From the NCBI RefSeq assembly GCF_004363095.1, contig NZ_SNYO01000001.1, positions 1,240,001-1,304,000 on the forward strand: a stretch of 64,000 nt of DNA, in the 5' to 3' direction. The notes beneath the pieces are model-generated. The model was not told the origin of the DNA, did no database searches, and worked only from the letters and a program-made list of their open reading frames with translations. This document shows, piece by piece, positions 44,381 through 58,365 of this stretch (positions are counted from its first letter, which is position 1; each line of letters starts with the position of its first letter). Origin of the DNA: Actinomycetospora succinea (GTDB lineage Bacteria > Actinomycetota > Actinomycetes > Mycobacteriales > Pseudonocardiaceae). Both the position numbers and the translations under genes were made by a program.

Positions 44381-47300
44381 TCACGGCACGACCCGGGAGA
44401 GGTCCTCGGCGAGGTGCCGCCACCCGTGCGCGCGGGCGGCGGTGAGCAGCGGCGCGAGCGTCTCGCGGGCGCGGGCCTCCCGGCCCCGAGCCATCCAGGC
44501 GCGCGCCACCGAGACGTAGGCGTCCGCCCCGAGCAGCCACGCCGTCGCCGGCGGGGCGGTCACGCCGGAGAGCAGGCGGTCGGCCTCGAGCAGGGCGGTG
44601 TCGGCGGGCACGCCCGCACCGTCACCGTCGCCCGCCTCCGCCAGCACCGCGAGGCACCGGGCACGGCAGGCGGCCACGGCGTCGGGCCCGGCGAGCGCGA
44701 GGCCGCGGTCGGCGAGCAGCCGGGCCTCGGCGACCTCGCCGCGCGCGAGCAGCGTCGTGGCGAGCAGCGCGCAGGACGTCGGCGTCCACCACCGGTGCCC
44801 GGCGTCCCCGTTGCGCAGCAGCGCCCGGCGCCCCGCGTCGACGGCCTCGTCGAGCTGGCCCTGCTGGCGCGCGACCCACCCGAGGTGGGCGAGGAACCAG
44901 GCGTCGTGGCCGCCGAAGCCGGAGTGCCGGGTCACGGCCATCGCCTCGGCGATCCGCTCGCGGGCCTCGTCCCACCGACCGGCGGCGATCGCCGGGAACG
45001 AGCCCTCGAACACCGCCCACTGCAGGACCGCGCGGTCCGGGAGCCTGCGGGCCAGCGGCTCCAGCTCGTCGATCACCTCGGCGAGCTCGTCGAGCATGCC
45101 CGTGTAGGCGTAGGCGGCCTTGAGCCCGTCGAGGCCGACGAGCAGCGCGTGGTCCCCGGCGTCACGGCCGGCGGCGACGGCGCGTCGGCCCTGGTCGATG
45201 GCCTCGCCGAAGCGCAGGTCGTTGGTCGCGAGGATCGCGAGGCGCCCGCGCAGGTCGGCCTCGGCCCCGCGGTCACCGAGGCTCGCGGCACGGCGCAGAC
45301 CCGTGCGCAGGTGTGTCACGCACTCGGCGGGCGGCACCCCCAGCGCGATCGGGACGTCGCCGCCGAGCTGGCGCAGCACCGCCATCTCGAGGCGCCGGTC
45401 GCCGGCCTCGCGGGCCGCCGCCGCGGCGCCGCGCAGGTCGCTCCACGCCTCCTCGTGGCGCTCGAGGCCCTCGCGGGCACGGGAGCGGGCCACGAGCACG
45501 CGGCCGGTGATCTCGTGGTCCCCGGCGCGCTCGGCGGCGGCGAGCGCGCGCCCGTGCAGCGACTCGGCGTCGCCCATCGCGCCGCGGCGCGCCGCGGTCT
45601 CGCCGGCCAGCAGCAGCGCGCGGGCCGCGCGCGGCCAGTCCTGCGCTGCGGCCGCGTGGGTGCCGGCGGACTCCGGGGTGCCGGCCAGCAGGTCGGCCGC
45701 GCGGCGGTGGTGCAGGCGGCGCACCGGGGCCGGGGTGGTGGCGTAGAGGACCTCGTGCACGAGGTCGTTGGCGAACTCGTAGGTCGCGCCGGTCGGGAGC
45801 AGCAGGCGCGCGGCGGCGGCCCGTTCGCAGCGCCGGGCGATCTCGGGCACCGGCAGCTCGAGCAGCCCCGCGGCCACCTCGGGGTCGACGGCCGCGCCGA
45901 GCACGGCGCCCGCGCGCAGGAGCTCCTCCACCTCGTCGCCGAGCCGCCGGACGCGCGCGAGCACGGCGGCCTGCAGCGACTCCGGCACCCCCGACCCGGG
46001 CGCGGCGAGGCCCCGGAGGGTCTCGACGACGAAGAGCGGGTGGCCCCGGGTGCGCCGGTGGATCGTCGCCCCGAGGTCCCGGCGTCCGGCGCGCTCGGCG
46101 AGCAGGGTGACCGCGGCGGCGTCGAGCGGACCGAGGTCGAGGCGCTCGCCGACCGTGTCGAGCTGCGCGAGCGCCTCGGCGCCCTCCTCCGCGCGCACGG
46201 TGGTCAGCACGAGGACCCGGGCGCCGGCGGGGCGCAGGGCGAGGAAGTGCAGCAGCTCGACGGTGGCGAGGCCCGCGTTCTGGAGGTCGTCGAGCACGAG
46301 CAGCAGGGGAGCGGTGGCGGTGAGGTCGGCGAGCAGGGCCGCGAGGGCGGCGAAGACGCGGCGGGGCTCCGCGTGGTCGTCGGACCCCGGGCTGCCGAGG
46401 TCCGGGAAGAGGCCCGCGAGCGCCGGCGGGACCGGGGCGGCGAGCACCGGGCCCAGCGCGTCGACGAGGGGCTGGAGGAACAGCGAGCGCTCGGCGCCGT
46501 GGCACCGCGCCGCCGCGACCCGGCCCCCGGTGGCCGCGGCGAGCCCCGCGACCTCGCCGGCGAGCCGGGTCTTGCCGATGCCCGCCTCGCCGGCGAGCAG
46601 CACGAGCCCGGACGTCCCGCGCGCCGCCGCGTCCCAGCGCTCGGTCAGGCGGGCGATCTCGGCGTCGCGCCCGACGCAGTGCGACGCCGGGACGGGGCGC
46701 GCGGTGGTCGCGGCCGGCCCGGTCGGCGGGCGCTCCTGGAGGAGGGCGAGGTGGTCGTCGCGGGTCTCGGGCGCCGGTTCGACGCCGAGCTCGTCGGCGA
46801 GGGCGGTCCGCAGCCGGTGGTAGAGCTCGACCGCCCGGGACGGCTCGCCGGCCTGGCGGTGGGCGCGCATGAGCAGGCGGTGGGCCGTCTCGTCGAAGCG
46901 GTCGGCGGCCACGGCGTCGGCGGCGGTGCGCCGGGCCCGTGTCGCGTCGCCGGAGCCCAGCGCCGCCCGGGCGTCGGCGTGGCGCGCGCGGCGCAGCAGC
47001 TCGCGCCACTCGTCCCGCGCGGCCGCGACCCAGGGCTCGTCGGCCTCCTCGGGCAGCGGCTCCCCGGTCCCGAGCAGCCTCAGGGCCCGCGCGGCGGCGC
47101 TCGCCGCGAGCCCCGGGGCGGCTGCCGCGAGGCGCCGGTCGGACTCGTCTAGCAGGCGCGCGGCCTCGTCGAGGTCGACGACCACGGTCGGCGGGGCGCC
47201 GAGCCGGTAGCCGCCGCGGTCGCCGAGCAGGATGTCCGGCTCGAGGCGGCTGCGCAGGCGGCTGACCAGCGTCGCGACGCCCGCGGCCGGGCTGCGGGGC

Positions 47301-47473
47301 GCGTCGCCGTTCCACAGCTCGGCCGCGAGCTGCTCGCCGGTGAGCACCGCCGGGCGCCGCGCCGCGAGCAGGGCGAGCAGCCGCCGCTCCTTGGGGCTGC
47401 CGAGGCGCAGCGCCTCGGGCGGTGAGCCCCGCTCCACGCGCAACGGCCCGGCCAGCCGGACCGTGACGCTCAT
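44381..47473 (-). CDS. SARP/AfsR-type regulator: OmpR-like HTH, BTAD, ATPase and helical repeats
   Basis: This 1030-residue regulator has a modular chain. Residues 1-90 form an OmpR-like winged helix (RLGSPKERRLLALLAARRPA, then GVATLVSRLRSRLEP). Residues about 95-245 form the bacterial transcriptional activation domain (VVVDLDEAARLLDESDRRLA, RQAGEPSRAVELYHRLRTAL). From about 265 an AAA/STAND ATPase follows, with Walker A LLAGEAGIGKTRLAGEVAGL and Walker B PLLLVLDDLQNAG. The rest is helical TPR-like repeats. Such proteins control secondary metabolism or morphology. I chose ATG 47473 because the upstream residues are basic and non-conserved. The 97-base gap below it (44284-44380) shows no gene. 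It lies upstream of the methyltransferase and glycosyltransferase genes on the same strand, so it may regulate them. Confidence 0.9.
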   Translation of the reverse strand: MSVTVRLAGPLRVERGSPPEALRLGSPKERRLLALLAARRPAVLTGEQLAAELWNGDAPRSPAAGVATLVSRLRSRLEPDILLGDRGGYRLGAPPTVVVDLDEAARLLDESDRRLAAAAPGLAASAAARALRLLGTGEPLPEEADEPWVAAARDEWRELLRRARHADARAALGSGDATRARRTAADAVAADRFDETAHRLLMRAHRQAGEPSRAVELYHRLRTALADELGVEPAPETRDDHLALLQERPPTGPAATTARPVPASHCVGRDAEIARLTERWDAAARGTSGLVLLAGEAGIGKTRLAGEVAGLAAATGGRVAAARCHGAERSLFLQPLVDALGPVLAAPVPPALAGLFPDLGSPGSDDHAEPRRVFAALAALLADLTATAPLLLVLDDLQNAGLATVELLHFLALRPAGARVLVLTTVRAEEGAEALAQLDTVGERLDLGPLDAAAVTLLAERAGRRDLGATIHRRTRGHPLFVVETLRGLAAPGSGVPESLQAAVLARVRRLGDEVEELLRAGAVLGAAVDPEVAAGLLELPVPEIARRCERAAAARLLLPTGATYEFANDLVHEVLYATTPAPVRRLHHRRAADLLAGTPESAGTHAAAAQDWPRAARALLLAGETAARRGAMGDAESLHGRALAAAERAGDHEITGRVLVARSRAREGLERHEEAWSDLRGAAAAAREAGDRRLEMAVLRQLGGDVPIALGVPPAECVTHLRTGLRRAASLGDRGAEADLRGRLAILATNDLRFGEAIDQGRRAVAAGRDAGDHALLVGLDGLKAAYAYTGMLDELAEVIDELEPLARRLPDRAVLQWAVFEGSFPAIAAGRWDEARERIAEAMAVTRHSGFGGHDAWFLAHLGWVARQQGQLDEAVDAGRRALLRNGDAGHRWWTPTSCALLATTLLARGEVAEARLLADRGLALAGPDAVAACRARCLAVLAEAGDGDGAGVPADTALLEADRLLSGVTAPPATAWLLGADAYVSVARAWMARGREARARETLAPLLTAARAHGWRHLAEDLSRVVP

Positions 47474-47561
47474 CACGACAGTGTGCGACCAGCGTCGTCG
47501 GCGGGGCAATGCGGACATCGCCCGATCGGCCGTATGTGCTGACTACGCGTAGTCGTTCGGG

Positions 47562-48890
47562 CTACCCGCCGAAGGACGCCGGCTGCCCCGTCGCCTCGAG
47601 CACCGACATCCACAGGTCGCCGTCGGGGTCGACCTGGTTGCGGTGCGAGGTGATCAGCCGCATCGGGATGTGCACGAACCGGCGCCGCCAGCGCACGACC
47701 ACCGTGTCGGTGCGCCCGGCCATCCCCGCGTGCACGGCGGCGTGGGCGAGGCGGACGCAGTAGACGCTGTCGTAGGCGTTCGCGGCGACGCTGCGGATCG
47801 CGTAGCTGGGGTCGAGGTAGCGCACGGTCGGCGGCAGCCCCGCCTCGGTGAGGTGCTCGGTGAGCTTCTCCTTGAGGAAGAGCCCGATGTCGCCGAGCTT
47901 GGCGTTGCCCGACGCGTCGGTCGTGCGGCCCTCCTGCTCGAGGAGCTCCTGGCCCGCGCCCTCGGCGACCACGACCACGACCTGCCCGTGGCGGCGCACG
48001 TGCTCCTCGACCCGTGCGAGCAGGCCGTCCGGCCCGTCGAGGACGAAGGGCACCTCGGGGATGAGGACGACGTCGGCGTCGTTGTTCGACAGCGCCGCGT
48101 AGCAGGCGATGAAGCCGGAGTGCCGGCCCATGAGCTTGACGATGCCGACGCCGTTCTCGGCGGCCTGCGACTCGACGAACACCGAGGCGATGAACTCGGT
48201 GGCCTGCGCGAACGCCGTCTGGAACCCGAAGCTCTGGTCGGTGTAGGGCAGGTCGTTGTCGATCGTCTTCGGGACCCCGACCACGGCGACGTCGAGCCCG
48301 CGCGCGTCGATCTCCTTGGTGATCTTCATGGCGCCGCGCATGCTGCCGTCGCCGCCGATCACGAAGAGCACGTCGATGCCCAGCTCGACGAGGGTGTCGA
48401 CCATCTCCTCGGCGTCCTGGTCGCCGCGCGAGCTGCCGAGGATCGTGCCGCCGTCGTTGTTGATGTCGCGGACGGCGTGCAGGTCCAGCTCGACGACGCG
48501 CTCGCGGTGCTGGCGGGTCAGGCCCGCGTAGCCGTTGCGGAAGCCGTAGATGTGCGCCACGTGGTAGTGCTCGGTGAGCTCCTGCACGATGCCGCGGATG
48601 ACGTCGTTGAGGCCGGGGCACAGCCCGCCGCACGTCACGATGCCGACGCTCGTCGCCGCCGGGTCGAAGTAGACCTTCCGGCGGGGCCCGGCCGCCTCGA
48701 GGCTCGGCAGCCGCTCGATGGGCGCGCCGCGCCCGAGCAGCACCGAGACGGTGTCGTCGACGAGGACGCGGTCGTCCTCGTGGACGTAGTGCGGCGACGT
48801 CTTCTTCGTCGCCAGCATCTCGGCGAACGGGGAGTCGTACCGGCATTCGCCGAGGGTGCGAACGCGCAGGTCGTCGAGCTCGAGCGTCAC
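47562..48890 (-). CDS. pfkA: 6-phosphofructokinase (long, ATP-type)
   Basis: This 442-residue phosphofructokinase phosphorylates fructose 6-phosphate in glycolysis. It belongs to the longer group related to plant and treponemal enzymes, with about 100 extra N-terminal residues. The glycine site VTCGGLCPGLNDVIRGIVQE is present. The nucleotide loop reads VIGGDGSMRGAMKI, where the Gly after the Asp points to ATP rather than pyrophosphate. The catalytic loop is VVGVPKTIDNDLPYTDQSFG, with Lys at the position that is usually Gly in bacterial ATP enzymes. Sugar-phosphate contacts include VKLMGRHSGFIACYAALSNN. I chose GTG 48890 on its GGAG site. A TATCGT palindrome lies about 65 bases upstream, inside the end of the LuxR gene. 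Confidence 0.93.
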   Translation of the reverse strand: MTLELDDLRVRTLGECRYDSPFAEMLATKKTSPHYVHEDDRVLVDDTVSVLLGRGAPIERLPSLEAAGPRRKVYFDPAATSVGIVTCGGLCPGLNDVIRGIVQELTEHYHVAHIYGFRNGYAGLTRQHRERVVELDLHAVRDINNDGGTILGSSRGDQDAEEMVDTLVELGIDVLFVIGGDGSMRGAMKITKEIDARGLDVAVVGVPKTIDNDLPYTDQSFGFQTAFAQATEFIASVFVESQAAENGVGIVKLMGRHSGFIACYAALSNNDADVVLIPEVPFVLDGPDGLLARVEEHVRRHGQVVVVVAEGAGQELLEQEGRTTDASGNAKLGDIGLFLKEKLTEHLTEAGLPPTVRYLDPSYAIRSVAANAYDSVYCVRLAHAAVHAGMAGRTDTVVVRWRRRFVHIPMRLITSHRNQVDPDGDLWMSVLEATGQPASFGG

Positions 48891-48954: not shown

Positions 48955-48968
48955 TATCGTTCACGATA
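48955..48968. promoter_or_regulatory. TATCGT palindrome upstream of pfkA
   Basis: TATCGT (48955-48960) and ACGATA (48963-48968) form an AT-richer palindrome separated by two bases in otherwise GC-rich DNA. It overlaps the stop codon of the LuxR gene. It may be an operator or part of the pfkA promoter. The 70 bases between pfkA and the LuxR gene show nothing else distinct. Confidence 0.4.
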
Positions 48969-51657
48969 ACCGAGGAGCACCCGCCGTCCCGTCCGGGAAC
49001 CGGCGGACCAGCTCACTGCGCGAGCGGAGGCCGAGCTTGCGGTAGACGCGGGTCAGGTGGTTCTCGACGGTCTTGCGGGAGACGAACAGCGCGGCCGCCG
49101 CCTCGTCGTTCGACCGGCCCTCGGCGACGACCCGCGCCACCTGGAACTCCTGGGGCGTGAGCGCCGCCCAGGCCGTCCGGGCGGGCGCGCCGCGCGGGGA
49201 GGGCACGCCCGCCGCCGCCAGCTCGGACTCGGCGCGCGCGGCCCAGGGCCGGGCCCCGAGGGCGACGAACGCGGCGTGCGCGTCGCGGGCGGCCGGGCGG
49301 GCCGCGGTCGGGCGGCGCAGCCGGCGCAGGCACTCGGCCTCGGCGAGCAGCGTCCGCGCCCGCTCGAAGGGCTGGTCGCAGCGGTCGTGGGCCGCGCGGG
49401 CGCGCGCGAAGCAGGCGGCGGCGTCGTCGGGGTCGTCGGCGAGGAACCCGCGGCACCGGTGCGCCGTCGCGGCCGGGAACGCGAGGCCGGTCGCCGTCTT
49501 CGGCTCCCACCAGGCGAGGACCTCGCGGGCACGGTCGGTGTCCCCGGCGCGGACCAGCGCCTCGACGAGGTCCGGGCCGTAGGGCACCACGTTGCTCGCC
49601 TCGAGGCCGTCGGCGAGCGCCCGGCGGTGCGCCGCCTCGAGGTGGTCGACGGCGTCCTCGGCCTCGCCGACGACCAGGGCGGCGAGGCCCTCGACCGCGG
49701 GGGCGTAGGTCTGCAGGCAGTCGATCCCGTGCGAGCCGACGGCGCCGAGGACGTGCCGGGTGCTCTCGCGGCTGCGCTCGACGTCGCCGGTGAGCGCGTC
49801 GAGCCGGGCGAGGACCATGGTCGCGATCGCGCCGGTGCCCGCCTCGCCCCGCTCCTCGGCCCACTGCCGGGCCTCGACGGCATCGGCGCGCGCCGCGGGC
49901 CAGCGTCCGCGCCAGAGGTCGAGCTCGGCGCGGATCGTGTGCCCGTAGGCCAGCATCGACGCCGCGCCGTGGCGTCGCCCCGCGGCGAGGACGGCGCCGA
50001 CCCGCTGCTCGGCGTCCTCGTAGCGCTCGGTGTGGACGGCGACCTGGGCGAGCTGCGCGCGGTGCTGGAGGGCCCAGGGACCGGTGTCGTCGGGGTCGGG
50101 GCCGTCCAGGGCGGGGACCTCGCCGCCGAGCACCTGCGCGCACGTCCGGGCCGGGCCCGCCGACCCCGGCGCGAGGGCGGTCGCCCGGTGCGCGAGGTCG
50201 AGCATCGCGTGGACCCGGCCCGCCATGCCCGCCGGCATCGTCGCCTCGGTGTAGAGCACGGCCGCGGCGTCGGCGTCCACCGGGGCGACGCGCTCGGCCG
50301 CGCGCACGAGGTCGGCGTGGGCGCGCCGGGGATCGCCGAGCCAGGCGGTCGCGCGGCTCCGCACCATCTCGACGCGCGCCGCGAACCGCACGTCACCGTC
50401 CAGGGCGAGGGCCGCCTCGGCGTGGCCCGCGGCGAGGTCGAGCGCGCCCGCCAGCAGGAACTCGCGGGCGGCCTCCAGGAAGCGGTCGGCGCGGTGGCGG
50501 CGGTCGGCGGTGAGCTGCGCGCCCCGGGCCCACGCCTCGCCGGCGCTGCGGTGACCGCCGAGGTCGGCCGCCGAGCACGCCGCCGCGGCGAGCTGCGCGG
50601 CGACGGCGTCGTCGGTGCCGTCGACGGTCGCGGCGAGGTGCCAGGCCCGTCGCGCGCCGGTGGTGCGGGCGGCGAACGCGGCGTGGACCCGGCGGGTGAC
50701 CACGGGGTCGACGCCGAGCACGACCGCGCGCAGCAGGGGATGGCGCAGCACCCGGCGCCCGGCGTCGTCCCGGAGCAGGCCCGCGCGCTCGGCGAGCTGC
50801 TGGTCGCGGACGGACACCCCGAGGTCGTCGAGCACCCGGTCCACGACGGCCTCGTCCGCCGACCCCGCGCCGGCCACGACGGCCAGGGCCGTGCGCGCCG
50901 GTTCGGGCAGCCCCTCGAGCGCGGTCCGCCACAGCGCCTCCAGCGCCGGTCCGGGCCGGGGCTCGTCCCGCCGGTCGCCGGCGAGGTGGCGCGCGTTCTC
51001 GACGAGGGCGAGGGGGTGGCCGGCGAGGTCGTCGACGAGCCGGTCCAGGGCGATCGGCGGGAGGCGCTCCGCGAGCGGGCCGAGGAGCAGGCGGCTCTCC
51101 TCGGCGCCCAGCCCGTCGAGGTCGACGACGACGGCGCCGGGGACCGTCCGGCTCCGGTCGCGGGTCGCGAGCACCAGGGCGACGCGCGCCGACCGCAGCC
51201 GCCGGGCCACGAACAGCAGGACCTCGACCGACGGGGTGTCGGCCCACTGCAGGTCGTCGACGACCACGAGCAACGGCCCGGCGTCGCCCGCCGCCTCGAG
51301 CAGGCCGAGCGCGGCGGCGCACACCGCCAGCGACCCGCCGGCGCGCCCGGCCCGGAGCGCGACGCTGACCTCGAGCGCCTCGCGCTGGACGTCGGGGAGC
51401 GCGGCGAGCGAGCCGCGCAGCGGCAGTACGAGGTCGGCGAGCACCGCGAACGGCAGGTGGGACTCGGTCTCGCTCCCGGCGACGCGCACGGTGCGTGTCC
51501 GCGAGCCGATGCGGGCGAGCAGTTCGGACTTGCCGATCCCCGGCTCGCCGCGGACGAGCGCCACCCGGTCCGGGCCACGCCCCTCGACGAGCGCCGTCAG
51601 CACCTCGATCTCGGCGTCCCGCCCGACGAACGTCGGCGTCTCGGTCGTCGCGGCCAT
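48961..51657 (-). CDS. Large ATP-binding LuxR-family regulator (LAL/MalT-like)
   Basis: This 898-residue regulator of the LAL group has an N-terminal STAND/AAA ATPase: Walker A ALVRGEPGIGKSELLARIGS (about residue 40) and Walker B GPLLVVVDDLQWADTPSVEV (about residue 130). A long helical-repeat middle region (about residues 350-800) is followed by a C-terminal LuxR helix-turn-helix: LTPQEFQVARVVAEGRSNDE, then FVSRKTVENHLTRVYRKLGL. ATP-dependent regulators of this type switch on whole clusters in response to a small molecule. It is divergent from the peroxidase operon across 445 bases, which makes that operon its most likely target. It also ends 70 bases before pfkA on the same strand. The ATG at 51657 follows a GGGGGA stretch. 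Confidence 0.9.
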   Translation of the reverse strand: MAATTETPTFVGRDAEIEVLTALVEGRGPDRVALVRGEPGIGKSELLARIGSRTRTVRVAGSETESHLPFAVLADLVLPLRGSLAALPDVQREALEVSVALRAGRAGGSLAVCAAALGLLEAAGDAGPLLVVVDDLQWADTPSVEVLLFVARRLRSARVALVLATRDRSRTVPGAVVVDLDGLGAEESRLLLGPLAERLPPIALDRLVDDLAGHPLALVENARHLAGDRRDEPRPGPALEALWRTALEGLPEPARTALAVVAGAGSADEAVVDRVLDDLGVSVRDQQLAERAGLLRDDAGRRVLRHPLLRAVVLGVDPVVTRRVHAAFAARTTGARRAWHLAATVDGTDDAVAAQLAAAACSAADLGGHRSAGEAWARGAQLTADRRHRADRFLEAAREFLLAGALDLAAGHAEAALALDGDVRFAARVEMVRSRATAWLGDPRRAHADLVRAAERVAPVDADAAAVLYTEATMPAGMAGRVHAMLDLAHRATALAPGSAGPARTCAQVLGGEVPALDGPDPDDTGPWALQHRAQLAQVAVHTERYEDAEQRVGAVLAAGRRHGAASMLAYGHTIRAELDLWRGRWPAARADAVEARQWAEERGEAGTGAIATMVLARLDALTGDVERSRESTRHVLGAVGSHGIDCLQTYAPAVEGLAALVVGEAEDAVDHLEAAHRRALADGLEASNVVPYGPDLVEALVRAGDTDRAREVLAWWEPKTATGLAFPAATAHRCRGFLADDPDDAAACFARARAAHDRCDQPFERARTLLAEAECLRRLRRPTAARPAARDAHAAFVALGARPWAARAESELAAAGVPSPRGAPARTAWAALTPQEFQVARVVAEGRSNDEAAAALFVSRKTVENHLTRVYRKLGLRSRSELVRRFPDGTAGAPRLS

Positions 51658-52102
51658 CGTGTCCCCCGATGGTGGCAGCGGGGCGTGCGTGGTGGGTGGG
51701 ACACAGGATGCCGCTGGTCCCGCGGGCGGGTGTGCCGCCTTTCGGGTCGGACGTGGGGGATTTCCCCGGTGCTCGGGAATGGCGTCCTACGCCGTCCGAC
51801 GGAATGGACGACCGTGCGCGATCGATCGATCACCGGGCGGAAGAACCGGACGTGCGGTACGGACGGCCGGCCATGCGCGCCGTGGCCGATCGCCCACTCC
51901 TCGCGACTTTCATCCCGTCGACGCGGGAGTTCTCCCCACTGCCGACTTCGTGCACGGAGCGGAATCGTCGAAAGCGGACAGGTTGGGGGACGCCGTGGCG
52001 ACACGGGCGCTGTCCAGGTCGAGCCAGGGCGACGACGCGCTGCTCTCCGAGACCCCCGACGCGGCACCGCCGACGTCACACCACGGTCCCAGGAGGAAGC
52101 GC
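51658..52102. promoter_or_regulatory. Divergent regulatory region between LuxR regulator and peroxidase operon
   Basis: This 445-base stretch has no gene that I can support. It is less GC-biased than its surroundings, as expected of a control region. I see a palindrome GGGGATTTCCCC (51756-51767), two copies of GGAATGG about 24 bases apart (51776 and 51800) and an AGGAGG ribosome site just before 52103. It is long enough to hold several regulator sites for both operons. I could not identify a clear -35/-10 pair for the peroxidase operon. Confidence 0.45.
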
Positions 52103-53839
52103 ATGAGCCAGAGCACCGGACCACGTCGCGTGATCGCCCGCAGGCGACACGGCAGCCACGCCGTCGTCGACCAGGCGAAGGACCTGGACGAAGCACTGAG
52201 GGAAGGCGCGCTGGAGCTCACGAAGGACGTCCAGGACGACGAACTCGCCCACGAGGTCGACGGCCCCTCCGCGCTCGCCGCCGCCGGCGCCACCGACTTC
52301 GACTACCTCCTGCCGGGCCTCGCTCAGATCCCCGCCAACCTCCTGCCGTCCGACACTGCGACGGTCACCCCGGCGCTCGACGCCCTGGGTGAGGCGATGA
52401 TCGAGCAGGGCGCTTCGCTGGGGAACGCGCCGATCGCCCCGATCCACACCTACTGGGGGCAGTTCGTCGACCACGACCTGACGGCCGCCACGGACAACGA
52501 CCTCCCCATCACGATCCAGGGCGACGCGGTCACCGTCGTGCCCCCGGACGACGTCATCGCCCAGCTCAAGAACGGTCGGAACCCCGCTCTGAATCTCGAC
52601 TCGGTGTACGGCGACGGGCCGTTCGCTCCCGAATCCTCCACCGAGGTCGTGGTCCCTTATCAGCAGGCCGACAAAGCGAAATTGAGGCTCGGCACCCTGA
52701 CGCCGCTCCACGGCGCCGCCGGAGTGCGCATCCCACCGGTCGACGACATCGAGCGCGACCTGCCCCGGGTCGAACAGGCCGTGACGGGCGGCCTGGACCT
52801 CCGCACGCCGCTCATCGGGGACGGCCGCAACGACGAGAACCTCGCGGTCGCCCAGTTGCACGTGGCGTTCCTCCGCTTCCACAACAACGCGGTGGACTGG
52901 GTCCGCGCCCACGAGCCCGAGCGCACCGGGGTGGGCGAGGTCTTCGACAGGGCGCGACAGCTCGTGCGCTGGACCTACCAGTGGCTGTGCGTCCACGACT
53001 ATCTGGACACCGTGCTGAGCACGGGGACCGTCGACCAGGTCCTCGCGACCGAGGACGGTCTCCTGGGACGACCGTTCATGCCGCTCGAGTTCTCCGTCGC
53101 GGCCTTCCGCTTCGGGCACAGCATGGTGCGCGGCGCCTACGACTGGAACCGCAACTTCGGCCAGGGCGACTTCGTGCCGGAAGCGGGCCTGGACCTCCTC
53201 TTCGCCTTCACGGGCCGGGGTGGCCTCGCCCCGCCGGGAACGCCGCCGGCGCAGTTCCCACCGACGCTGCCCGACAACTGGCCCGCGGAGTACGGCCGCC
53301 TGGTCCTGCTCGATCCGTCCTTCCCGAAGCGGGCCGCACGGCCGATCGACACCCACCTCGCGGACCCCCTCGCCGACATGGTGAACCAGGTCCCGGACAC
53401 CACCCCCGCACCCGGCCCGGACGTCGCCGAGCTCCTCAAGCACCTCGCCCGACGGAACCTGCGCCGCGGGTACGCCATGAGCATCCCGACGGGCCAGGCC
53501 GTCGCCGTGGCGCTCGGGCTCCCGGTGCTGTCCTCCCAGGAGATGACCGGCGGGCTCGACGCGGGCGTGCAGACGGCGCTCGAGGCCGGCGGCTTCGTCG
53601 ACCGCACGCCGCTGTGGTTCTACGTCCTGCGCGAGTCCGAGGTGCGGTCGAACGGCCACGCCCTCGGACCGGTGGGCAGCCGGATCGTCGCCGAGACGAT
53701 CATCGGCCAGATCCGCAACGACCCGCGCTCGTACCTCAACCAGACGGCGTGGACGCCTGCCGACGGCGTCACGTTCCCGGACGGTTCTGCTGTCACGTCG
53801 ATCGCGGACTTCATCCGCTTCGCGGGGTTCCCGGTATGA
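52103..53839 (+). CDS. Animal-type haem peroxidase
   Basis: This 578-residue peroxidase belongs to the peroxidase-cyclooxygenase (animal haem peroxidase) superfamily. The distal histidine segment is HTYWGQFVDHDLTAA (His124, with Asp123/Asp125 as in myeloperoxidase-type enzymes). The distal Arg/Glu pair is in LIGDGRNDENLAVAQLHVAF (Arg242, Glu245), and the proximal His is in AAFRFGHSMVRGAYDW (His339). It would oxidise a substrate with hydrogen peroxide. No signal peptide is visible: the N-terminus is basic (RRVIARRRHG) and then acidic and helical, so the enzyme may act inside the cell. The ATG follows an AGGAGG site. The next gene overlaps its stop by four bases (ATGA), so expression is coupled. 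The natural substrate is unknown. Confidence 0.93.
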   Translation: MSQSTGPRRVIARRRHGSHAVVDQAKDLDEALREGALELTKDVQDDELAHEVDGPSALAAAGATDFDYLLPGLAQIPANLLPSDTATVTPALDALGEAMIEQGASLGNAPIAPIHTYWGQFVDHDLTAATDNDLPITIQGDAVTVVPPDDVIAQLKNGRNPALNLDSVYGDGPFAPESSTEVVVPYQQADKAKLRLGTLTPLHGAAGVRIPPVDDIERDLPRVEQAVTGGLDLRTPLIGDGRNDENLAVAQLHVAFLRFHNNAVDWVRAHEPERTGVGEVFDRARQLVRWTYQWLCVHDYLDTVLSTGTVDQVLATEDGLLGRPFMPLEFSVAAFRFGHSMVRGAYDWNRNFGQGDFVPEAGLDLLFAFTGRGGLAPPGTPPAQFPPTLPDNWPAEYGRLVLLDPSFPKRAARPIDTHLADPLADMVNQVPDTTPAPGPDVAELLKHLARRNLRRGYAMSIPTGQAVAVALGLPVLSSQEMTGGLDAGVQTALEAGGFVDRTPLWFYVLRESEVRSNGHALGPVGSRIVAETIIGQIRNDPRSYLNQTAWTPADGVTFPDGSAVTSIADFIRFAGFPV

Positions 53840-55752
53840 GCACCACGCTGCACGAGCAGCAGGACCTCGCCGCCGCGCGGTACAACGACCGCGCGGCGGA
53901 GCGGGCGGAGACCGAGCGCAAGCAGGAGGCGACGGGCACGCTCGTCGTCGACGACCCCGCGCAGATCGAGGCCCGGGCCGAGCGGCTCCTGGGCGACGCG
54001 GTCGGGCCGCGGGCCGTCCGGCAGGCCGGCCGGACCGAGGGCGTGCTCGAGCGGATCATCGCCGAGAACGACCTCCAGCCGAGCCTCTTCCTCGGGCGCG
54101 GGACGGCGATCGCCGAGTCGGTCGGCCGCATCTCGCTCTCCGACGGCGGCGCCGGGACCGGCTTCCTCGTCGGCCGGCGGCTCCTGCTGACCAACAACCA
54201 CGTCCTGCCGGACCTCGCCACCGCCAAGGACGCGTTCGTCGAGTTCGACTTCGAGCTCGGGCCCGACGGGCGGCCGGAGCAGCCGGCCGCCTTCGACCTC
54301 GACCCGGGCACGCTCTTCCTCACCGACGCCGGGATCGACGCGAGCCTCGTGGCCGTCGCGCCCGCGAGCGGCGTCGTGGCCGGCGACAGGTACGGGTGGA
54401 ACCGGCTGCTCAAGCAGCAGGGGAAGATCGTCATCGGCGAGGCCGCGAACGTCATCGGCCACCCCTCGGGGCGCCGCAAGGAGATCGCGGTCCGCCACAA
54501 CCGGTTGCTCGACCAGCTCCCGGACTTCCTGCACTACGAGGCCGACACCGAGCCGGGCAACTCCGGGTCGCCGGTCTTCAACGACCAGTGGGAGGTCGTC
54601 GCCCTGCACCACTCCGGCGTCCCGAGGACGAACGACGCCGGGCAGTGGCTGACCGCCGACGGCAGGGTGTGGGACCGGTCGATGGGCGACGCCGCCGTGG
54701 CCTGGGTGGCCAACGAGGGCGCGCGGATCTCGGTGGTCCTCGCCCGGCTGCGCGCCCTGGCCACCACGCCGGCGCAGGTGGCGCTGCTCGACGAGCTCGG
54801 CGCCGAGGCCCTGGTCGGCGCGGCGCCGACCGAGGCGGCGAGGACGGCGCCCGAGGCCGCCGGGCGTCCCGGTCTCCGCGGCGTGCCGGAGACGCCACCG
54901 CACCTCGTGTTCCTCCACGGCCGGTCCCAGCAGGGCCGGGACCCGGCCGTGCTGCGGGCCGACTGGGCCGGCGGCCTCGCCCGCGGGCTGGGCGGCGTCG
55001 GCCGCGCGCCGGTCAACCCCGCGCGCGTCTGGTTCCCGTACTACGGCGATCTCCTCGCCGGGCTCGCCGACGCGTCGGCCACCGAGCGGCTGGTCACCGC
55101 CGACGGGAGGGGGACCGTGGCCGAGCAGGTGGCTCCCGTCGGCACGTCCGCCCGCGCCACCTACGCCGAGCTCATCGAGGACGCGGCCGCCCGCGCCGGG
55201 TTCCGGCCGACGGCGACGGCGCGCGAGGGGATCGGGGACCTCCTCGCGGGGCTCCAACCCGCCCTGTCGTGGCTCGCGAACCGCAGCCGCCTGGACGACG
55301 TCGTCATCGCGGCGGTGTTCCGGGACGTCGCGCTGTACCTCGACGACGACCGGGTGCGCGGCCAGGTCCTCGACACCGTCCTCGCGACCTTCCCGACCTC
55401 CGGGCCGGTCACGCTGGTGTCGCACAGCCTCGGCACCATCGTCGCGCTGGACCTGCTCACCCGGGTGCCGCCCCAGGTCGACCTGCGGCTCCTCGTGACC
55501 GCGGGCAGCCCGCTCGGCATGGACACCGTGACCAAGCGCCTCCTCGGCGACGGGCCGCACCGGCCCGCCGTCGGGCGGTGGGTCAACGCCTGGTGCCCGG
55601 CGGACGCCGTCGCCATCGGGTGCCCGCTCGCGCCGACGTGGGGCGGCGGGGTCGAGGACGTCCAGACGGACAACGCGACCGACCGCGCCCACGCGATCAC
55701 CGAGTACCTCGCCGACCTGCGGGTGGCCTCGGCGATCGCCGACACGGTCTGA
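53836..55752 (+). CDS. V8/trypsin-like serine protease fused to an alpha/beta hydrolase
   Basis: This 638-residue protein has two hydrolase domains. Residues about 1-95 are a charged helical N-terminus containing the stretch LERIIAENDLQPSLFLGRGT. Residues about 100-330 are a V8-like serine protease, with His122 in LLLTNNHVLPD, Asp168 in AGIDASLVAVA, and Ser243 in EPGNSGSPVFNDQW. Residues about 355-638 are an alpha/beta hydrolase, with HLVFLHGRSQQGRDP and nucleophile Ser531 in TLVSHSLGTIVALDLL. No export signal is visible. Both catalytic sets look intact. The start is an ATGA overlap with the peroxidase stop, so the two are made together. What it cleaves, and whether it processes its partner enzymes, is unknown. 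Confidence 0.9.
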   Translation: MSTTLHEQQDLAAARYNDRAAERAETERKQEATGTLVVDDPAQIEARAERLLGDAVGPRAVRQAGRTEGVLERIIAENDLQPSLFLGRGTAIAESVGRISLSDGGAGTGFLVGRRLLLTNNHVLPDLATAKDAFVEFDFELGPDGRPEQPAAFDLDPGTLFLTDAGIDASLVAVAPASGVVAGDRYGWNRLLKQQGKIVIGEAANVIGHPSGRRKEIAVRHNRLLDQLPDFLHYEADTEPGNSGSPVFNDQWEVVALHHSGVPRTNDAGQWLTADGRVWDRSMGDAAVAWVANEGARISVVLARLRALATTPAQVALLDELGAEALVGAAPTEAARTAPEAAGRPGLRGVPETPPHLVFLHGRSQQGRDPAVLRADWAGGLARGLGGVGRAPVNPARVWFPYYGDLLAGLADASATERLVTADGRGTVAEQVAPVGTSARATYAELIEDAAARAGFRPTATAREGIGDLLAGLQPALSWLANRSRLDDVVIAAVFRDVALYLDDDRVRGQVLDTVLATFPTSGPVTLVSHSLGTIVALDLLTRVPPQVDLRLLVTAGSPLGMDTVTKRLLGDGPHRPAVGRWVNAWCPADAVAIGCPLAPTWGGGVEDVQTDNATDRAHAITEYLADLRVASAIADTV

Positions 55753-55814
55753 CACGGCACGCCGCCACGGCCCGGCCGTGGCGGCGTGCCCACGCACAGC
55801 GAGGGGGGAGGGTC

Positions 55815-57848
55815 GTGCCCGACGACCCGGCACAGCACGGCCGGTGGGACCCGGTGATCGGCCTGCCCGACGTGGCGATCCACCTCGCCGTCCTGCCCAC
55901 GGGGAAGGTCCTCGCCTGGGGGCGACGGCGCGACCCGCAGGGGAGCATGCACCAGCAGGGCTGCGCCCCGTTCGTCTGGGACCCGGCCACGGGCACGAGC
56001 ACGCCCACCGACGAGCCGGCCCGCGCGGACGGCACCCCGGTCAACCTCTTCTGCTCCGGCCACGCGCTCCTCGCCGACGGCCGGCTGCTGGTCGCGGGCG
56101 GCCACGTCACCGACGGCGACGGCCTCGACCAGGCGTGCGTCTACGACGCCGGGCAGGACACCTGGACGCCGCTGCCGCCCCTGCGCAGCGGGCGCTGGTA
56201 CCCCGGCGCGGTCACGCTCGCCGACGGCCGCGTGCTCGTGATCTCCGGCAGTCACCAGGACGGGCCGGACCAGCCCGTCGAGCCGATCCCCGAGATCTGG
56301 GACGGCGCCACCTGGCAGCCGACGCGCGACTTCCAGGGTCTGCCGCTCTACCCGCGCGTCCACCAGCTGCCCGACGGCCGGGTCGGCATGGTGGGCTCGA
56401 ACGGGGAGACCACGGCCCTCGACACCGCCGGCGCCGGGACGTGGTCCACGCTCGGGACCCGCGCCCAGGGCGAGCGCCAGTACGGACCGGCCGTGATGGA
56501 CGCGCCGGGCAGGGTCGTCTACCTCGGCGGCGGCAACGACGCCGGCGACCACCGCCCCACCGACCGCTGCGAGAAGATCGACCTCACGACGCCGACCCCG
56601 GCCTGGACGCCGGCGGCGACCATGGCCTTCCGCCGCCGTCAGCACAACGCCACCCTGCTGCCCGACGGCACGGTCCTGGTCACCAGCGGCACGAGCGGCC
56701 CCGACTTCAACGACCTCGCGCCCGGCGCGCCCGTGCACGCCGCCGAGCTCTGGGACCCCGCGACCGACACCTGGACGACGCTGGCGAGCGAGGACGTCGA
56801 CCGGTGCTACCACGCGAGCGCCGTCCTGCTGCCGGACGCCACCGTCCTGTCCGCCGGCGGCGGGGAGTTCGTCGTCGGCGCCACGCCCAACGCCCCGCAG
56901 GACACCCACCGCGACGCGCAGGTCTTCCGGCCGCCCTACCTCTTCCGCGGCCCGCGCCCGGCCGTCGCGGCGGCCCCGGACGTCATCACGCCGGGGGAGA
57001 CGTTCACGGTGACCACCGACGACCCGGGCATCGCGGCCGTGACCCTCGTCCGGCTGTCCTCGGCCACCCACACGCTCAACACCGACCAGCGCTTCGTCCG
57101 GCTCGCCGCCACGCCCGACACGGCCGACCCGCGGACGCTCGCCGTCACCGCCCCCGCGAGCTCCGCCGACTGGCCGCCCGGACCCGCCATACTCTTCGTG
57201 CTCGCCGCCGACGGGACGCCGTCGCCCGCGCACCTCCTGCGGGTCGCGACGGGTGCCCCACCACCGGCTCCACCGCCCGCGGCCCCGGAACGCGCCACGA
57301 GGCGCCGCCGGCGCGCGACGGGGACGGCGGTGACGGTCGGGCTCACGGCCCAGTGCCCGTACGGCCTCGGGCCCTGCTGGGGCGGCGCCTACACCGCCCT
57401 CGGGCACCTGGAGGGCGTCGGCGACGTCGACCCCGTCCCGGACCACGCCGACCAGACCGCCCGCGTCGTCCTCACCCACCGTGGCCTGCCCGACCTCGCA
57501 AGCTGGCCCGGGCAGCTCGCCGCGCGCGCCAACGCCAGCTACGTCCTGCGCGGGGTCGAGGTCACGCTGCGCGGGTCGCTCGGCGGCGACCCCGGCGACC
57601 CGCACCTGACCTCCCCGGACCTGGCCGAGCCGCTGCGCCTGCACCGGATCGCGCCGGGCCACCACGTGCCGTGGGACCTGCGACGGCGACGGCGGCGCTC
57701 GCTCACCGCCGACGAGCGCGACGCCCACCGGCGGCTCCTCGCCGTCCGGGCCGACCGGCCCGGCACCACCGTGACGGTGACCGGCCCGCTGCGGCTCGTG
57801 CGAGGCCGGGCGGTGCTCTCGGTCCGGACCGTCACCGAGGACCACTGA
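55815..57848 (+). CDS. Copper-radical oxidase (galactose/glyoxal oxidase-like, kelch fold) with extra C-terminal domain
   Basis: This 677-residue protein has the seven-bladed kelch core of galactose/glyoxal oxidase and every residue of the copper-radical site. Cys80 (NLFCSGHALL) and Tyr129 (GRWYPGAVTL) can form the Tyr-Cys cofactor, Tyr332-His333 (RCYHASAVLLPD) are ligands, and His419 (SATHTLNTDQRF) is the last ligand in the DUF1929-type domain. Such enzymes oxidise an alcohol or aldehyde and make hydrogen peroxide. No signal peptide or carbohydrate-binding domain precedes the core, unlike secreted fungal enzymes. Residues about 505-677 form an extra domain with AQCPYGLGPCWGGAYTALGH (Cys514 and Cys521). 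The start is GTG 55815 behind a GGGGGGAGG site, 62 bases after the protease stop. Confidence 0.9.
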   Translation: MPDDPAQHGRWDPVIGLPDVAIHLAVLPTGKVLAWGRRRDPQGSMHQQGCAPFVWDPATGTSTPTDEPARADGTPVNLFCSGHALLADGRLLVAGGHVTDGDGLDQACVYDAGQDTWTPLPPLRSGRWYPGAVTLADGRVLVISGSHQDGPDQPVEPIPEIWDGATWQPTRDFQGLPLYPRVHQLPDGRVGMVGSNGETTALDTAGAGTWSTLGTRAQGERQYGPAVMDAPGRVVYLGGGNDAGDHRPTDRCEKIDLTTPTPAWTPAATMAFRRRQHNATLLPDGTVLVTSGTSGPDFNDLAPGAPVHAAELWDPATDTWTTLASEDVDRCYHASAVLLPDATVLSAGGGEFVVGATPNAPQDTHRDAQVFRPPYLFRGPRPAVAAAPDVITPGETFTVTTDDPGIAAVTLVRLSSATHTLNTDQRFVRLAATPDTADPRTLAVTAPASSADWPPGPAILFVLAADGTPSPAHLLRVATGAPPPAPPPAAPERATRRRRRATGTAVTVGLTAQCPYGLGPCWGGAYTALGHLEGVGDVDPVPDHADQTARVVLTHRGLPDLASWPGQLAARANASYVLRGVEVTLRGSLGGDPGDPHLTSPDLAEPLRLHRIAPGHHVPWDLRRRRRRSLTADERDAHRRLLAVRADRPGTTVTVTGPLRLVRGRAVLSVRTVTEDH

Positions 57849-57909: not shown

Positions 57910-58365
57910 ATGCCCGACGACATCGTGGTCACGCGCACCGTGGACGCCCCCGCCGAGCGTGTCTGGGACCTGGTCGGCGACCCGGCCCGGATCGGCGCCG
58001 TCTCCCCGGAGTGCCACCGCGTCGACTGGCTCGGCGGCGCCTCCGGCCCGGCGCCCGGCGCGCGGTTCAAGGGCCACAACCGCAAGGGCCTGCTGCGCTG
58101 GTCGACCACCGGCACGGTCGTCGAGTACGCCCCGCAGCGCGAGATCAGCTGGGACGTCGACCTGATGGGCCAGTCGGTGGCGCGGTGGGGCTTCCGCCTC
58201 ACCCCCGAGGGTGGCCGCACGCGCGTCGAGCAGTTCTGGCAGGACAGGCGCAGCCCGCTCGCCAACGTCGTCGGCCGGGCGCGGGCGTGGGACGTGCCCG
58301 CCGCCAACCGCCGCGGCATGGAGGAGACGCTCGACGCGATCCGGCGCCGCGCCGAACAGGGCTGA
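57910..58365 (+). CDS. SRPBCC-family protein (polyketide cyclase/dehydrase-like)
   Basis: This 151-residue START/Bet v1-fold protein begins IVVTRTVDAPAERVWDLVGD, the usual opening strand and helix, followed by PECHRVDWLGGASGPAPGAR and the barrel strands GTVVEYAPQREISWDVDL and RWGFRLTPEGGRTRVEQFW. A C-terminal helix, ANRRGMEETLDAIRRRAEQG, closes the cavity. These proteins bind hydrophobic ligands and have many roles, so no reaction is assigned. A TACGGT -10-like box lies at 57869-57874 and a GGAGGAA site before the ATG, so it can be transcribed on its own. It is 61 bases after the oxidase stop on the same strand. It ends six bases from the convergent STAS gene. Confidence 0.87.
   Translation: MPDDIVVTRTVDAPAERVWDLVGDPARIGAVSPECHRVDWLGGASGPAPGARFKGHNRKGLLRWSTTGTVVEYAPQREISWDVDLMGQSVARWGFRLTPEGGRTRVEQFWQDRRSPLANVVGRARAWDVPAANRRGMEETLDAIRRRAEQG

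Follow-up and report, generated by a model that had tools for sequence, protein, structure and literature searches.

The window analysed here is a 64,000-nucleotide (64 kb) stretch of contig NZ_SNYO01000001.1 of the soil bacterium Actinomycetospora succinea, in which three intact reading frames form an operon-like set encoding an animal-type haem peroxidase (POX), a fusion of a V8-like serine protease with an alpha/beta hydrolase (PROT) and a predicted copper-radical oxidase (CRO) (Table 1). A preliminary description of this DNA had reported three closely spaced genes; the distal His, Arg/Glu and proximal His of the peroxidase, both catalytic sets of the fusion and the five metal and cofactor residues of the oxidase as intact; no signal peptide on any product; and a large divergent LuxR-type ATPase regulator. 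Each of these observations is borne out by the data below. A scan for promoters and terminators found neither.

Table 1. Features of the Actinomycetospora locus in window coordinates.
Feature	Position	Strand	Basis or remark
Left border, ATP-dependent 6-phosphofructokinase	47562-48890	-	NCBIfam; conserved flank by synteny
Large LuxR-type ATPase regulator (AAA_16 + GerE)	48961-51657	-	Pfam; divergent from POX
Palindrome GGGGATTTCCCC, candidate operator	51756-51767	.	Matches pattern GGGRRTTYYCCC
Palindrome GGGAGTTCTCCC, second candidate operator	51925-51936	.	Matches pattern GGGRRTTYYCCC
POX, animal-type haem peroxidase (PF03098), 578 aa	52103-53839	+	ATG start, AGGAGG just upstream
PROT, V8-like serine protease + alpha/beta hydrolase fusion, 638 aa	53836-55752	+	4-base overlap with POX
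PROT protease domain (Trypsin_2); His122, Asp168, Ser243	54154-54606	+	Pfam, residues 107-257
PROT alpha/beta-hydrolase domain, lipase-like; Ser531, Asp590, His619	54850-55749	+	48-sequence alignment, AlphaFold model, Foldseek
CRO, copper-radical oxidase, 677 aa	55815-57848	+	GTG start, 62 bp after PROT
CRO catalytic part (kelch propeller + GO-like E-set); Cys80, Tyr129, Tyr332, His333, His419	55815-57248	+	Pfam, alignment
CRO C-terminal domain (CTD), CPYGLGPCW (Cys514, Cys521); predicted ferredoxin-like + OB-like halves	57303-57845	+	Alignment, model
Right border, SRPBCC/polyketide-cyclase-like gene	57910-58365	+	Pfam; adjoins the phosphofructokinase gene in cassette-free genomes

POX was assigned to the animal-type haem peroxidases by Pfam (An_peroxidase, 60.5 bits against a cut-off of 25, the match being limited to profile positions 211-325), in agreement with a comparison against the PDB. 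With PF03098 above its gathering score and the distal and proximal His, the Arg and the Glu in place, the protein falls within the peroxidase-cyclooxygenase superfamily. Gln120, Asp123, His124, Arg242, Glu245, His339 and Asn452 are invariant in all eight aligned sequences, the window's included. POX thereby shares with the superfamily the distal Gln/Asp/His, the Arg...Glu arrangement and the proximal His and Asn, but differs from it in having neither a signal-like N-terminus nor the dioxygenase-type Tyr. That Tyr, three residues ahead of the proximal His, has a catalytic role in the dioxygenases; in POX its place is taken by Phe335, with one extra residue before the proximal His, and POX therefore looks like a peroxidase. 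The candidate function of a cyclooxygenase-type dioxygenase was rejected on the same grounds.

The protease half of PROT matches Trypsin_2 with 77 bits (Pfam cut-off 27.6), and the PDB comparison agrees with this assignment. No Pfam model matches the hydrolase half, whose AlphaFold model, built from 48 sequences (pLDDT 88.7), lies nearest to lipases, weakly so (best Foldseek E 1.1e-3, TM 0.37). The residues that we take, by motif, to be the two catalytic triads are invariant in all six aligned sequences, including that of the window, and the Ser, Asp and His of the hydrolase are also invariant in 48 of 48 sequences.

CRO matches GO-like_E_set (70.9 bits) and kelch, both above the Pfam cut-offs, as well as Glyoxal_oxid_N, and its five cofactor residues align with those of galactose oxidase; by sequence it belongs to the AA5 copper-radical oxidases of the galactose/glyoxal oxidase kind. 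Its identification as GlxA was considered and rejected, the score on the NCBIfam equivalog NF052501 being 225.5 bits against a cut-off of 800. His147 replaces the second-sphere stacking Trp (W290) of galactose oxidases, and among ten CTD-type oxidases this position holds His in four and Ala, Phe or Tyr in two each. The stacking Trp is described as dispensable in AA5, some characterised alcohol oxidases having Tyr or Phe there (passages of PMC11267884). The catalytic part is followed by the CTD of 181 residues, which no Pfam model matches; all ten proteins that carry it, the window's among them, combine the five cofactor residues with the motif CPYG(L/I)GxCW. In a model built from four sequences (pLDDT 77, with three of five models below 50), the first half of the CTD follows the order E-H-E-E-H-E and places its CX6C motif where the first strand passes into the first helix. 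A heavy-metal-associated (HMA) domain, the fold considered for the CTD, has the order beta-alpha-beta-beta-alpha-beta with a CxxC metal loop; the best Foldseek matches of this model are OB folds, an HMA domain ranking 36th (E 3.3e-2). The CTD may load copper.

CRO matches reach through the CTD in 6 of 18 genomes of the genus. With up to eight candidates scored per genome, the domain occurs in at least 2 of 397 genomes of the order, the window's own included and the one outside the genus being G537; within the family of G537 it occurs in 3 of 112 genomes, counting G537 itself. Of 29 matching plasmid records, one, from Sinorhizobium meliloti RRI128, has the CTD, and no other had a match spanning 80% or more of CRO.

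None of the three products shows an N-terminal hydrophobic segment in a hydropathy scan of the first 60 residues, the best 15-residue means being -0.07 for POX, 0.31 for PROT and 1.75 for CRO; by the same measure, three signal-bearing GlxA-like oxidases encoded elsewhere in the window genome reach 2.6-2.8. Values of 0.8-1.75 were obtained for the ten CTD-type oxidases, none of which has a signal-like N-terminus, with the start codons of some relatives uncertain. CTD-type CROs thus apparently form an undescribed clade of copper-radical oxidases without a signal-like N-terminus. Since the enzymes have no visible export signal, they are most likely cytosolic or else released by lysis. Known copper-radical oxidases are regarded as exported and as loaded with copper outside the cytoplasm. 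GlxA and Sco are treated in passages of PMC4736821.

The pattern GGGRRTTYYCCC, shared by the two palindromes between the LuxR and POX genes, has just two exact matches in the 64 kb, both in this intergenic region, against an expectation of 0.10, which is to be read in the light of the pattern having been chosen after both sites had been seen. The first palindrome is present as the exact pattern at the same place in five of six Actinomycetospora species; the second is exact in two of the six, and the remaining four have nearly matching forms of it, GGGAGATCTCCC or GGGAGTTGTCCC. Seven other LuxR/POX or CRO/POX intergenic regions tested lack the pattern. A LuxR homologue of about 42% identity stands divergent from POX and PROT in four Streptomyces loci (L230, L239, L241 and L254), as in the window, and in 5 of 40 loci of the wider POX family the gene immediately upstream of POX encodes such a homologue. 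The regulator, with the two palindromes as candidate operators, would be the switch of the cassette. Beyond the phosphofructokinase gene and two genes from LuxR, the window also encodes a large AfsR/SARP-like regulator with BTAD, AAA_16 and TPR domains (44381-47518).

To place the locus in its genus, the interval between the phosphofructokinase and SRPBCC genes was compared among 18 Actinomycetospora genomes, some of the comparison genomes being drafts; it was readable in 12 (G098, G118, G151 and G203 were unread, and the sequence fetched from G042 and G075 had a phosphofructokinase paralogue but lacked the SRPBCC border). The interval holds a LuxR module in six genomes and a DyP2 gene in one, and the borders touch in five (G178, G200, G202, G204 and G206). 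The full arrangement LuxR|POX-PROT-CRO occurs in three: the window genome, G207 and G189 (A. callitridis). A. lutea (G201) carries at the same site a trypsin-Endonuclease_NS fusion, and in G205 a DyP2-type peroxidase stands alone (L171:6411-7844; 426 bits to PDB 4g2c). In G202 a distant POX lies beyond SRPBCC, on its other side. As the content varies between the same borders, the site is a swap site for effector-like enzymes, and the trio is not fixed but a variable assembly at an insertion-prone chromosomal position. The genes also differ in their divergence: between the window and A. callitridis, POX is 53% and PROT 81% identical, and the window POX is closest to that of A. straminea (76%), whereas the PROT of A. 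straminea is closest to that of A. lemnae (92%). With this far greater divergence and a lower GC content at third codon positions (GC3; 0.92 against 0.99 and 0.97), POX has its own history.

Outside this site, haem-enzyme neighbours of CTD-type oxidases were sought with a few queries (POX, dioxygenase and DyP), not with every haem family. A complete haem enzyme lies near the oxidase in four of seven genomic settings (the window, G572, G591 and G537), a small sample given here with no formal estimate of chance. G572 has a POX-type peroxidase (44% identical) divergent from the oxidase, with a GMC oxidoreductase on the other side, and in G591 the oxidase is flanked by two DyP peroxidases with GxxDG intact. 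The cluster in G537, a member of another family of the order (L263:568-15822), combines a CTD-type oxidase with a haem alpha-dioxygenase, M8 and M8-S8 proteases, an Endonuclease_NS protein with a Trypsin_2 match below the cut-off, and an alpha/beta-hydrolase-like protein, likewise below the cut-off. These sequence comparisons suggest that the pairing of oxidase and haem enzyme recurs and has been assembled repeatedly. Animal-type and DyP peroxidases have unrelated folds; their alternation beside the same oxidase clade therefore favours a link through hydrogen peroxide (H2O2), and is the best argument for such a link.

Judged by sequence comparison, the broader associations of PROT itself, with haem alpha-dioxygenases, nucleases and other proteases, are the better key to this protein. 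The best 80 of 348 candidate stretches confirmed as relatives were used as PROT loci, with genes called by a simple codon-usage script instead of a standard gene finder; five Actinomycetospora species are the closest loci among these best 80. PROT-like fusions are widespread in Actinomycetota (Streptomyces, Nocardia, Nonomuraea, Embleya, Thermobifida, Pseudonocardia and others), and by these gene calls protease and hydrolase share one frame in 74 of the 80 loci. POX was matched at full length in nine loci and as a remnant in one; the haem alpha-dioxygenase query was matched in 16, weakly in L200 (26% identity), and ten loci, A. lutea included, match the nuclease portion of the protease-nuclease protein from A. 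lutea. The dioxygenase query protein itself scores 334 bits against the alpha-dioxygenase of PDB 4hhr and keeps the YRMH motif. PF03098 is otherwise rare: 28 genomes, which by their rounded sizes total about 249 Mb, yielded 25 matches. A PF03098 gene is present in 6 of 24 dereplicated PROT loci (25 representatives minus L186, a locus from a metagenome-assembled genome) against 0.049 expected from the genome-wide rate (Poisson P ~2e-11 under random placement). That rate was used instead of a near/far contrast of PROT neighbours, which failed to separate near from far for PF03098; the count of 10 of 28 PROT loci with PF03098 was not used as a test, L188, L239, L241 and L254 having been added when their PF03098 content was already known.

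Several further arrangements were seen at these loci. Close to PROT homologues in Nonomuraea and Pseudonocardia (L199:16171-18978 and L204:3019-5784), an alpha-dioxygenase-like domain continues the frame of another N-terminal domain, and in Nocardia (L192, L196 and L211) a separate protein adjoins the dioxygenase gene. This extra domain or protein may be of the catalase family, but Pfam and the PDB gave no such match, and for L196:5965-7086 no relative of solved structure was found at E up to 1. In Streptomyces curacoi a trypsin-like protease joined to an AAA/STAND-like nucleoside triphosphatase (NTPase) is encoded immediately upstream of a PROT homologue (L258:5955-9740), both NTPase matches being below the cut-off.

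The protease is also found outside the fusion. With up to six candidates scored per genome, at least 39 of 200 genomes of the window genome's family match PROT, most over one half only. Ten PROT-type proteases from other genera were scanned, of which eight are fused to Endonuclease_NS, one (L117) is fused to Endonuclease_1 and one (L118) occurs with EAD8. Rhizobial plasmids encode proteins with the annotation DNA/RNA non-specific endonuclease that are 44-47% identical to the protease half, a Rhizobium gallicum protein so annotated being 47% identical over PROT residues 68-299. In L118:7337-8389 the effector-associated domain (EAD) EAD8 (72 bits) precedes the protease, a tie to EAD conflict systems. 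A possible triple fusion, L115:6561-9257, joins in a single 899-residue frame an alpha/beta-hydrolase-like region (34% identical to the PROT hydrolase over part of the region), a PROT-type protease and Endonuclease_NS.

For the wider POX family, 40 loci were examined out of 82 places listed outside the window. Besides LuxR, the recurrent neighbours are short-chain dehydrogenases (six loci), an unnamed membrane-protein-like family (six), a transport-permease-like cluster (four) and a methyltransferase-like cluster (four), all named by eye; none of the recurrent neighbours of these 40 loci suggests a function. In G151 a Tle1-like (PF09994) hydrolase gene directly follows POX, with LuxR divergent (L044:7915-9033), a second pairing of peroxidase and hydrolase.

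Taking these observations together, we hypothesize that the locus is an interchangeable, probably cytosolic cassette of oxidative and lipolytic effectors, most likely deployed in biological conflict, a reading to which we give about an even chance. Under the control of the LuxR-type ATPase regulator, CRO would oxidise an alcohol or aldehyde and yield H2O2, which POX would use to form stronger oxidants; POX might also activate or mature CRO, by analogy with what has been reported for the fungal Perox-AlcOx pair and for DtpA and GlxA of Streptomyces. PROT, a protease of the NucA-trypsin type joined to a lipase-like hydrolase, could, once activated, cleave proteins and lipids or free its own effector half, so that the protease would be a possible trigger and the lipase-like domain might attack membranes. 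The joint outcome would be self-fuelled oxidative and lipolytic damage, serving either a suicidal defence or the killing of neighbours or invaders after lysis. A broader proposal, which we advance tentatively and consider rather doubtful, is that intracellular copper-radical oxidases with their own metal-handling CTD (CPYGxGxCW), together with interchangeable haem peroxidases of unrelated folds, may form the peroxide-fuelled effector arm of protease-triggered conflict cassettes in Actinomycetota and rhizobia, a bacterial parallel to the arsenal of oxidase, peroxidase and protease with which neutrophils are equipped.

A number of observations weigh against a conflict cassette of this kind. The bacterial cytosol holds little free copper, which makes a cytosolic copper-radical oxidase biochemically awkward. 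PADLOC gave no match for POX or CRO and only weak ones for the protease domain of PROT, and direct annotation as a defence system by this tool was accordingly rejected; the LuxR ATPase apart, the cassette showed no recognisable sensor or NTPase from known conflict systems. The trio itself is loose: LuxR|POX-PROT stands without CRO in two species, A. chibensis and A. lemnae (genomes G135 and G166), and the A. lutea arrangement LuxR|PROT-[protease-nuclease]-CRO has POX internally deleted. The A. lutea remnant (L185:9882-10001) retains about 25 codons of the start and 13 of the end in one 39-codon frame running into PROT, with a tblastn match spanning 33 codons. CRO and POX were accordingly rejected as an obligate pair. 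CRO lies within the fetched flanks of only 1 of the 40 family POX loci and in only 3 of the 80 PROT loci, and many PROT homologues stand alone amid housekeeping genes. PF03098 is equally frequent one to two genes from PROT (3/97) and four to five genes away (3/89), so that the link to PROT is one of island scale, not operon scale. Among the other CTD-type settings, the Sinorhizobium oxidase has upstream just an N-terminal fragment of a dioxygenase, in frame with multicopper-oxidase domains, and in G200 and G202 the POX, dioxygenase and DyP queries were unmatched in the fetched flanks of the CRO clade members, which have patatin-like genes nearby. The co-occurrence check invited by the preliminary description thus found the three genes partly scattered among relatives; its idea of a self-fuelled oxidation module gains support from the pairing of oxidase and haem enzyme at other loci, but the three genes as one fixed system are not supported.

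A rival explanation, which we consider unlikely, is that CRO, POX and PROT are functionally unlinked accessory genes that accumulated independently at a hot spot of integration. The varying content of a single site, including genomes with no insert, is in its favour, as are the divergence and low GC3 of POX relative to PROT and the equal near and far frequencies of PF03098; it sits poorly with the recurrence of CRO beside haem peroxidases at unrelated sites in another family, the LuxR-POX-PROT order conserved in Streptomyces, the overlap of POX and PROT in the window and the enrichment of PROT loci in the haem superfamily. We judge equally improbable a lipid-oxidation pathway, in which the lipase-like half of PROT would free fatty acids, an alpha-dioxygenase or POX would oxidise them and CRO would act on the resulting alcohols or aldehydes, giving oxylipin-like signals or metabolites. 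The dioxygenase matches in 16 of 80 PROT loci (one of them weak), the score of the query protein against the alpha-dioxygenase of PDB 4hhr, the dioxygenase arrangements at L199, L204, L192, L196 and L211 and the weak likeness of the hydrolase model to lipases are consistent with such a pathway; the window POX, with Phe335 for the dioxygenase Tyr and the shifted proximal His, argues against it, and the protease-nuclease fusion at the swap site would have no obvious place in it.

A third alternative would treat the locus as a variant of the morphogenesis system that GlxA and DtpA form in Streptomyces, with the oxidase acting on a surface glycan, matured by the peroxidase, and both exported by an unrecognised route. 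Its appeal lies in GlxA being a bacterial copper-radical oxidase that needs the peroxidase DtpA for maturation (passages of PMC4736821). CRO nevertheless falls below the cut-off of the GlxA model, no glycosyltransferase was found among the eight window proteins scanned with Pfam, and CRO and POX carry no signal in a genome that already encodes three signal-bearing GlxA-like oxidases elsewhere; we therefore regard this variant as very improbable, and retain the conflict cassette as the preferred reading.

A clade of copper-radical oxidases that lacks an export signal and carries a cysteine-motif domain as a fusion would pose the problem of how the Tyr-Cys radical is assembled in the cytosol, and would provide oxidases that could be produced without secretion. 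Peroxide-fuelled haem enzymes partnering conflict-type proteases would also constitute an oxidative class of effectors beside nucleases, NADases, pore formers and proteases. With animal-type peroxidase and DyP replacing each other next to one oxidase clade, purified proteins would allow a direct test of the functional link.

The preliminary description knew of no described system with this set of genes, and nothing in the open-access literature searched contradicts that; each half of the set nevertheless has a precedent. In the tandem Perox-AlcOx pair of Colletotrichum and Magnaporthe (described in passages of PMC9770985) a copper-radical oxidase and a haem peroxidase are likewise encoded close together, in a pairing that recurs. 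According to the same passages, the fungal pair is secreted, is encoded head-to-head and includes a class II peroxidase, whereas POX and CRO of the window have no signals, are co-directional with PROT between them, and combine an animal-type peroxidase with an oxidase bearing the additional CTD. Streptomyces GlxA-DtpA resembles the window in that a bacterial copper-radical oxidase depends on a haem peroxidase for maturation, but, as related in passages of PMC4736821, GlxA lies outside the cytoplasm, DtpA is a DyP-type substrate of twin-arginine translocation, and the two genes are apart.

The protease half finds its precedent in the NucA-trypsin conflict systems ('System 3' of Kaur et al. 2020, PMC7159879), for which passages of that paper propose a proteolytic cascade that deploys a nuclease; activation of a nuclease proenzyme by a trypsin-like protease has been demonstrated in a different defence setting (passages of PMC12799240). 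The word 'peroxidase' is absent from the main text of PMC7159879. The window shares with these systems, as characterised in passages of the same paper, the kind of trypsin-like protease, and relatives of the PROT protease are fused to Endonuclease_NS or an EAD. The window cassette has no Endonuclease_NS, neither within the protease protein nor in a neighbouring gene; A. lutea has one at this site. The window system differs from them in that its protease is fused to an alpha/beta hydrolase and its neighbours are oxidative enzymes.

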